From NCBI GenBank assembly GCA_035573675.1, contig DATMAB010000015.1, positions 248,001 to 312,000 of the forward strand: a DNA stretch of 64,000 nucleotides. Reading direction: 5' to 3'. A program made the position numbers and the translations under genes. This document shows positions 4,248 to 6,911 of the stretch, in pieces. Source of the stretch: Terriglobales bacterium (GTDB taxonomy: Bacteria > Acidobacteriota > Terriglobia > Terriglobales > Acidobacteriaceae). The notes below the pieces were generated by a model. It saw nothing but the letters and a program-made list of their open reading frames with translations, had not been told where the DNA came from and did no database searches. Position 1 is the stretch's first letter; every line of letters begins with the position of its first letter.

Positions 4248-5690
<1,443 letters not shown>

Positions 5691-5693
5691 CTA

Positions 5694-5722
5694 TTGTCCT
5701 GGTTTCAGGGGTGTTTTACAGT
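5694..5722 (+). promoter_or_regulatory. Sigma70-like promoter of the Sec-peroxiredoxin gene
   Basis: TTGTCC (5694-5699), a 17-nt spacer and TACAGT (5717-5722). The expected transcription start falls around 5729, at most a few bases before the ATG at 5732. No Shine-Dalgarno sequence is placed correctly, so translation may be leaderless. The region is divergent with eno. Confidence 0.5.
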
Positions 5723-5731
5723 CGGCGCCAG

Positions 5732-6259
5732 ATGGCTCTCTCCTCCGAGACCCTCGCGGTCGGCGACCGCGCGCCGGATTTCACCCTGGCGGCGGCAAAT
5801 CGCCCTGGCCAATTCTCGCTGTCGGCTGAACTCGCCCGCGGCCCCGTGATCCTGGAATTCCTGCGAGGCACATGGTGACCGAACTGCGCCAGACGCATGG
5901 CTCAGTTGGAGCCGCGCAAAGCGGAGATCGAGGCCACCGGCGCTTCCCTGCTCTACATCGCAGCGGAGAAGCGCGGCGGAATGTTCAAGCCGGAAAAGTA
6001 TCTCAAAGAGCACCCGGTCTCCTTCCCGTTCCTCCTGGACGAAGACCGGCGCGTCACCAAAGCCTACGGCATCTACCACCGCATCGGAGTGGATGCCTTC
6101 AATATCGCCCGCCCGGCGACTTTCGTCGTCGAACCCTCGGGAACGATTCGCTACGCGTTTGTGGGCGGCAATCAGCACGAGCGCTCCCCCGTGGCAGATT
6201 TTCTGGAGGCGGCCCGACGAATCGACGCTTCCCAACCCAACTCTCGAAGCCGACCTTAG
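5732..6259 (+). CDS. Peroxiredoxin (AhpC/TSA, thioredoxin fold) with in-frame TGA: probable selenoprotein
   Basis: The frame opens at ATG 5732 (MALSSETLAVGDRAPDFTLA, a typical AhpC/TSA start) and runs to TGA at 5876-5878. It then continues in the same frame, without another stop, to TAG at 6257. Around the TGA the product reads FLRGTW-U-PNCARRMAQLEPR. Relatives have RGTWCPxC here, so TGA replaces exactly the first, nucleophilic cysteine (residue 49), and the second cysteine (residue 52) is kept, giving a UxxC motif. Downstream PVSFPFLLDEDRRVTKAYGI and FVVEPSGTIRYAFVG are standard peroxiredoxin strands. A SECIS-like hairpin follows the TGA. With Sec the protein is 175 residues, a normal length. 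The alternatives are a nonsense mutation or a base error; the intact downstream frame and the hairpin argue against them. It would reduce peroxides with a thiol partner in the cytoplasm. Confidence 0.8.
5895..5917 (+). promoter_or_regulatory. Bacterial SECIS-like hairpin downstream of the in-frame TGA
   Basis: GGCTC (5899-5903) pairs perfectly with GAGCC (5909-5913) around the 5-nt loop AGTTG. The stem can be extended by a U-G wobble (5898/5914), an A-C mismatch and two G-C pairs (5895-5896/5916-5917). The loop begins 25 nt after the TGA and has G at its second position. Both fit the published bSECIS model: apical loop about 16-37 nt downstream, and a G among the first two loop bases. The hairpin lies inside the coding sequence, as bacterial SECIS elements do. 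Confidence 0.65.
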
Positions 6260-6269
6260 GAGGTCAGGA

Positions 6270-6911
6270 ATGAAAAAGCTGGCTGCTCTGCTGCTCCTTC
6301 TGGGATTGATGATTCCGTGCGCCATCGCCCAGGAAACCCCGAAAGCTCTTTCCCTGCCATCCGGCACCGGCGTCCGCATGAAGCTGGAGACCACCATCTC
6401 CACTTCCGCCAGCAAGGCCGGCGACACCTTTGCCGGGCGTGTGACCGAGGCCGTGGTGTTGGACGGCAAGACCGTCATCCCGGTGGGCTCCGCGATCGAA
6501 GGCCGCATCGTCTCGGTCTCCGAGCCGCGCCGCATCAAGGGACGCCCGACCATCCATCTGCTTCCCAACCTGCTGACCCTGCCCAACGGCGAACGCTACG
6601 ACTTCAACGCCGTCGTGGTCGATACCGACCGCACCACCAAAACGGAGGTGACCGAAGAAGGCCAGATCAAAGGTCAGGGCGCAAGCAAGGGTGACAAGAT
6701 CGAAATGGCCGCGGGCACCGGAGCGGGCCTGACCATCGGCGCCATCGCCGGCGGCGGCAAGGGCGCGCTGGTGGGAGCCACCATCGGCGCAGCGGCGACC
6801 GTGACTCACTGGCTCACCAAGCGCAAGACGGCCGAACTCCCCGCGGGCTCGGAGATCGTGATGGAACTCAGCCGGCCCATGCTGATCACGGCTTCGAGCG
6901 AGGGCAAGTAG
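6270..6911 (+). CDS. Secreted hypothetical protein with glycine-rich C-terminal segment
   Basis: The ATG at 6270 follows a strong AGGAGGT Shine-Dalgarno; an upstream in-frame ATG at 6093 lies inside the peroxiredoxin gene and is rejected. The 213-residue product begins with a clear signal peptide (MKKLAALLLLLGLMIP, cut near AIAQ). A beta-rich domain follows with LPSGTGVRMKLETTIST and a tract resembling VirB10/TrbI-type surface-exposed domains (VIPVGSAIEGRIV). Near residues 150-180 there is a glycine/alanine-rich hydrophobic segment like a glycine-zipper. The function is unknown. The gap from the peroxiredoxin stop is only 10 nt, so co-transcription is likely. Confidence 0.75.
   Translation: MKKLAALLLLLGLMIPCAIAQETPKALSLPSGTGVRMKLETTISTSASKAGDTFAGRVTEAVVLDGKTVIPVGSAIEGRIVSVSEPRRIKGRPTIHLLPNLLTLPNGERYDFNAVVVDTDRTTKTEVTEEGQIKGQGASKGDKIEMAAGTGAGLTIGAIAGGGKGALVGATIGAAATVTHWLTKRKTAELPAGSEIVMELSRPMLITASSEGK

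Follow-up and report, generated by a model that had tools for sequence, protein, structure and literature searches.

The window, the whole stretch of 64,000 nucleotides that was analysed, belongs to a genome of 3.16 Mb in 28 contigs that is 99.11% complete (G000). On its forward strand, positions 5732-6259 hold a single frame of 175 codons, from ATG 5732 to TAG 6257-6259. TGA 5876-5878, at residue 49, is the sole internal stop of this frame, which is unchanged on either side. The locus comprises the following features:

4248..5678, minus strand: enolase gene (eno), the divergent neighbour; limits are those of the listed ORF, whose real start may lie more internally
5694..5722, plus strand: promoter-like TTGTCC-17 nt-TACAGT, picked out by eye, ending 9 nt 5' of the ATG
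5732..6259, plus strand: coding sequence of the predicted Prx-like selenoprotein, 175 codons plus TAG; based on frame, Pfam domain and alignment A1
5876..5878, plus strand: in-frame TGA, predicted Sec49, first position of UxxC; TGA in all but one of the 36 family copies that were read
5885..5887, plus strand: TGC codon of Cys52, which is predicted to resolve Sec49; the same codon in all 16 loci compared
5899..5913, plus strand: predicted bacterial SECIS hairpin GGCUC-AGUUG-GAGCC, stem of 5 bp; based on conserved position and covariation
6113..6115, plus strand: CCG, Pro128; invariant in A1 (24 sequences), Pro in 3kcm and Arg in 2cx3
6270..6911, plus strand: downstream conserved ORF; beside the gene in 15 of 29 loci searched, including that of the Cys orthologue L118

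The joined product matches the Pfam families Redoxin (residues 10-153, E 1.4e-22) and AhpC-TSA (residues 10-141, E 1.9e-22), and both matches span the TGA, indicating that the two halves form one domain. This agrees with the first-pass annotation, which had seen one frame on both sides of the stop and a joined AhpC/TSA protein. The motif around the TGA is LRGTW-U-PNC, placing the predicted selenocysteine at the first position of the active-site CxxC. The TGA, which makes the gene look interrupted, is almost certainly read as selenocysteine, so that the gene is whole. No NCBIfam model scores over its cut-off for the joined product; the best two are ResA (50.7 bits, cut-off 170) and the SelL-related redox protein NF040769, to which the product does not belong (44.8 bits against a curated cut-off of 120).

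Enolase stands beside the gene in 13 of the 29 loci searched, L118 included, and the downstream ORF has no Pfam match over cut-off. Sequences like TTGTCC-17 nt-TACAGT were seen by eye in about 10 of 19 upstream regions of the family, while a promoter scan returned nothing over threshold, this candidate included. With only 9 nt between this element and the ATG, the transcript may have little or no leader. An antisense open frame of 293 aa (5705-6586, minus strand) runs across the gene; it is probably a high-GC shadow, and a gene caller could choose it.

Conservation of the TGA and the selenocysteine machinery

We searched 398 genomes of the window's family (E <= 1e-25) and found an orthologue in 57. 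Codon 49 was read in 36 of these copies, the window included, and is TGA in 35 (L001-L016, L104, L105 and the 17 copies L144-L160) and TGC in one (G488); the other 21 were counted only as having at least one internal TGA. The codon is also TGA in the 89%-identical congener. The first-pass annotation had proposed asking whether this column is Cys or U among homologues, and the answer is U, rarely Cys. A sample of 396 genomes of the phylum (E <= 1e-18) gave 17 matches, 16 of them with the TGA in the active site, as read from the motif; the match L116 was rejected as a UGA form, being a Cys paralogue (GGWCPFC) that ends in an ordinary TGA stop. In A1 the group carries the signatures F-x-RGTWUP-x-C and IA-x-P. 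Two UGA copies, L015 (G010) and L016 (G002), have frame shifts elsewhere in the gene, through assembly error or decay. A general reassignment of UGA was rejected: TGA terminates 21 of the 37 longest non-overlapping ORFs of the window (at least 200 aa), a mechanical list with at least one antisense shadow ORF among its entries.

All four components that the first-pass annotation had named for a search, selA, selB, selD and tRNA-Sec, are present in G000. The tRNA-Sec (C17:24997-25090) scores 69 bits against a cut-off of 47, has the anticodon TCA (UCA) and an encoded CCA. SelB (C27:46371-48251, 357.6 bits, cut-off 242.25) combines a GTPase domain with two SelB winged-helix domains, SelA lies at C27:60329-61702 (564.8 bits), and SelD (C27:396936-397865, 369.2 bits) has an in-frame TGA of its own in AGUASK. 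By gene content, then, this organism is predicted to make selenocysteine. Five of the nine AhpC-TSA matches in the genome carry an active-site TGA: the window gene, L095 (C27:164224, TPGU), L096 (C12:111594, TGGU), L097 (C27:191495, TPTU) and L103 (C7:88347, HAAUPFG). L103 lacks a Cys three residues beyond the TGA; SelL_rel_redox is the NCBIfam model that it matches best (90.4 bits, cut-off 120).

The gene also follows selA across the family. We called selA at E <= 1e-50, taking the sample to be the same draw of 398 family genomes, and found it in 183: in 51 of the 57 genomes with the orthologue and in 132 of the 341 others. Both genes occur in 51 genomes, the orthologue only in 6, selA only in 132 and neither in 209 (Fisher one-sided p 1.7e-13, uncorrected for shared descent). 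The six genomes with the orthologue and no selA are G488, which has the Cys form, and G523, G534, G686, G699 and G708, which count as UGA forms, the codon having been read in three of these five. G534 (100% complete) has a tRNA-Sec of 63.1 bits, and G523, G686, G699 and G708 (69-82% complete) show no tRNA-Sec at E <= 1e-8. G002, 90% complete with SelA, SelB and SelD present, likewise shows no tRNA-Sec at E <= 1e-8 or above the background, which reaches 49.6 bits in SelA-less genomes (G013). The tRNA-Sec match of G488, at 50.2 bits, lies slightly over this background.

The Cys orthologue L118 comes from a record labelled as an Edaphobacter aggregans MAG, the nearest named record, whose family is that of the window's genome. 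It is 55% identical to the window protein and has TGC at codon 49. G488 (100% complete, 6% contamination) is identical to L118 across the 3,100 bases compared. L118 retains eno upstream and the downstream ORF, indicating that the locus is the same. Searches of its genome found no match to SelA and none to SelB that passes the cut-off, and the SECIS-like hairpin is absent from the gene. L118 thus serves as a natural control, as a single case. L118 and 23 further Cys loci were collected by a scan with a Cys-coding pattern, which can find only Cys forms. SelA over cut-off is present in 7 of the 16 Cys-form genomes tested, all seven being distant relatives with identity of 40% or less, so that Cys forms overall are not confined to genomes that lack the selenocysteine system.

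A predicted SECIS hairpin and constraint on synonymous sites

The published bSECIS pattern asks for a loop of 3-9 nt, a stem of 4-16 bp, a G in loop positions 1-2, a spacing of 16-37 nt and a minimum free energy of at most -7.5 kcal/mol (PMC13188914). The window hairpin begins 20 nt past the UGA and fits this pattern, with 5 bp, the loop AGUUG and 25 nt from UGA to loop. Its energy is -8.4 kcal/mol on 21 nt; folded as the bare 15 nt it reaches -6.9 kcal/mol, short of the limit. With the energy criterion left aside, the pattern holds for 25 of 27 UGA genes, the two failures (L003 and L012) having a C-A mismatch in the hairpin; on the same terms, 4 of 12 Cys genes have some fitting hairpin. The test left out the frame-shifted L015 and L016, L018, L117 and L144-L160, and used 12 of the 24 Cys loci. 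Compared with synonymous shuffles, the hairpin is significant (p < 0.05) in 18 of the 27 UGA genes, and folding energies are weakly lower (mean z -0.77). The best-scoring hairpin of L017 is a different one.

Twenty-two sequences share one register, where 108 of 110 pair cells are standard, and sliding the stem by 1-3 columns reduces pairing to 15.5-50%. One pair has changed on both sides twice, from U-A to C-G in L011 and from U-A to G-C in L108. The covariation score was matched by 2 of 500 column shuffles, and the number of pairs changed on both sides by 74 of 500. Seven of 29 UGA sequences are in another register; by eye, the stems of L110, L111, L113 and L115 enclose AGUU or GGUU and keep the same place; those of L109, L112 and L114 lie nine nt earlier.

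The lowest-energy fold of the window RNA 5879-5913 is a competing hairpin at -14.8 kcal/mol (5880-5909, loop GACGCA, 13 nt past the UGA), and by eye this hairpin or a near variant leads in only about 6 of the 18 folds of 54 nt. It was rejected as too near the UGA for the published model, and its 5' arm would probably lie inside the ribosome with the UGA in the A site. We chose the AGUUG hairpin over it because most relatives share the former.

Synonymous sites point to a second constraint, at the RNA level. Among 16 orthologues the codons TGC 52, CGC 55 and CAG 58 are each identical in 16 of 16, and GAG 60 in 15 of 15, while codons 50, 51, 53, 54, 57 and 61 vary; relative synonymous diversity at 88 codons elsewhere averages 0.84 of the maximum, the lowest value being 0.33. 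Codons 52 and 55 lie 5' of the 15-nt hairpin and are not explained by it. Folds of many relatives show these two codons (window 5885-5896) within a small additional stem, so the SECIS element may be larger than the 15-nt hairpin.

These results bear on the other ways in which the stop could be read. A pseudogene or sequencing error, that is, a sense codon turned into TGA by mutation or misreading, has in its favour that a lone stop in an otherwise full frame resembles a fresh nonsense mutation. However, the 35 family genomes read as TGA all have this stop at codon 49, as do members of further families in the phylum sample; the protein is conserved past it, and the synonymous sites right after it are frozen. 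This explanation is vanishingly unlikely: the conservation of the TGA across relatives rules it out, and the first-pass annotation was right to doubt a random nonsense mutation, the codon being TGA in 35 of the 36 family copies. It is extremely unlikely that the locus holds two genes, of which the first would stop at the TGA to give a short N-terminal protein and the second would be an ORF of 120 aa from ATG 5897. Both ORFs appear in the ORF list and an in-frame ATG (Met56) does follow the stop, but the Pfam domain crosses the junction, and P50 and C52, invariant in A1, would go untranslated; on these two observations the arrangement was rejected.

A selenium-free readthrough, with UGA decoded as Trp or Cys by a near-cognate tRNA, is very improbable. 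A Cys orthologue exists, so Cys would probably work chemically; on the other hand, the gene tracks selA, the genome of the only Cys form read in the family sample lacks SelA and has no SelB above cut-off, and the SECIS-type hairpin is conserved. The selenoprotein reading is very probably correct: the gene would encode a 175-residue Prx-like thiol:disulfide oxidoreductase whose UGA is read as Sec via the hairpin and SelB. Judged from sequence, the locus has what is expected of a selenoprotein gene, namely an in-frame UGA within a conserved domain, UGA homologues, Cys homologues, the Sec machinery and a predicted bSECIS. The conserved TGA, the machinery and the hairpin all favour the earlier proposal of a selenoprotein with Sec at the first CxxC position (UxxC).

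Fold, active site and proposed chemistry

The AlphaFold model of the protein (pLDDT 88.8) places Sec49, modelled as Cys, just ahead of helix 50-68. The closest PDB folds to this predicted model are Bcp4 (3hjp, Z 22.7, rmsd 1.9, 157 residues aligned) and then AhpE (4x0x, Z 22.4, rmsd 1.7, 152 aligned), suggesting a peroxiredoxin fold. Profile comparison gives 83.6 bits for the peroxiredoxin 2cx3, and 67.7 and 65.3 bits for the thioredoxin-family proteins ResA and 3kcm. Aligned with 2cx3, Sec49 falls on the active-site Ser, Cys52 on the peroxidatic Cys and Pro128 on the Arg.

Canonical peroxiredoxins have a PxxxTxxC/U motif and a catalytic Arg before the xxF strand. The window protein instead reads RGTWUPNC, with Sec in the Thr position, and has Pro128 at the Arg site in the 2cx3 alignment. 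It resembles ResA in the GTWCPxC motif, although the ResA alignments end at residue 114, and 3kcm in TWCPxC, the Pro of 3kcm aligning with Pro128. It differs from ResA-type and other thioredoxin-family proteins in that its best fold matches are peroxiredoxins and no signal sequence or anchor is evident by eye. The name 'peroxiredoxin' in the first-pass annotation therefore holds for the fold and fails for the active site, with its thioredoxin-like UxxC, Sec at the Thr/Ser place and Pro128 for Arg.

We propose the following course of events. When the ribosome arrives at UGA 5876-5878, SelB on the hairpin 5899-5913, carrying Sec-tRNA(Sec), would insert Sec and the chain would continue; SelA would form the Sec on tRNA-Sec(UCA) from selenophosphate supplied by SelD. 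Sec49, lying before the helix in UxxC, is likely to be the attacking selenolate, Cys52 would resolve it as a selenenylsulfide, and thioredoxin or a similar donor would reduce the latter. The proposed work of the protein, in the cytoplasm, is to exchange thiols and disulfides or to reduce peroxides.

An alternative that differs from this explanation in chemistry only is a selenoprotein acting as a true peroxiredoxin, with Cys52 as the peroxidatic residue and Sec49 standing at the site of the Thr. In its favour, peroxiredoxins give the best structural matches, and their peroxidatic Cys aligns with Cys52. Nevertheless, PxxxTxxC is absent, an invariant Pro occupies the catalytic Arg site, as in the thioredoxin-family 3kcm, and the known Sec peroxiredoxins, where PMC1088965 treats them, have TxxU while the window gene has UxxC. 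We consider such an enzyme unlikely and the thioredoxin-like reading of the active site probable. Most likely, the Sec49-Cys52 redox pair would serve thiol/disulfide exchange or thioredoxin-coupled peroxide reduction.

Relation to known selenoproteins

In 2005, the relevant passages of PMC1088965 described Prx-like UxxC selenoproteins as distantly homologous to Prx, with TxxU replaced by a thioredoxin-like UXXC. Later papers tabulate Prx-like thiol:disulfide oxidoreductases (pfam00578, UxxC/UxxU), as their tables show (PMC1794560, PMC9312934, PMC13188914, PMC2398784), and one counts, in the part dealing with them, 32 such selenoproteins in 28 organisms (PMC5029168). Like these, the window gene has an AhpC-TSA/Redoxin domain, distant Prx homology and a thioredoxin-like UxxC in place of TxxU; compared with the descriptions in the passages concerned, it fits among them. 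Its group is set apart by F-x-RGTWUP-x-C and IA-x-P and by Sec in all copies read but one of its family sample. It also shares Pfam family and motif with the 'Redoxin family protein' selenoprotein (PF08534, UxxC) and with Prx-like 3 of the GOS study, as the available passages describe them, and by description this may be the same group. Canonical Sec peroxiredoxins (TxxU) have the same fold, and G000 has such genes (TPGU at C27:164224, TPTU at C27:191495). Their Sec is peroxidatic, whereas in the window gene Sec lies three residues earlier and a Cys takes that place.

The listings and passages searched on selenoproteins, selenocysteine and tRNA-Sec in Acidobacteria (Acidobacteriota), Solibacter, Terriglobia and Acidobacteriaceae do not describe the locus. 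For Acidobacteria, the relevant part of a 2006 survey lists three selenoprotein families with four proteins (PMC1794560), and that of the deep-Sep paper three known genes in one listed Acidobacteriota member (PMC12013277).

On a wider scale, the evidence is about evenly balanced for a nearly Sec-only subfamily, known so far chiefly from a single acidobacterial family, that combines a thioredoxin-like UxxC and Pro with a peroxiredoxin scaffold in a hybrid active site, often beside enolase and in selenoprotein-rich genomes, in which a change from Sec to Cys at the locus goes with loss of the Sec machinery. The analysis recovers as one gene what standard annotation would probably split in two. 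It suggests that selenium redox chemistry is common in a group credited with few selenoproteins in the papers cited above, and the occurrence of both a Sec and a Cys form at the same syntenic position offers a natural pair for assessing what selenium contributes.
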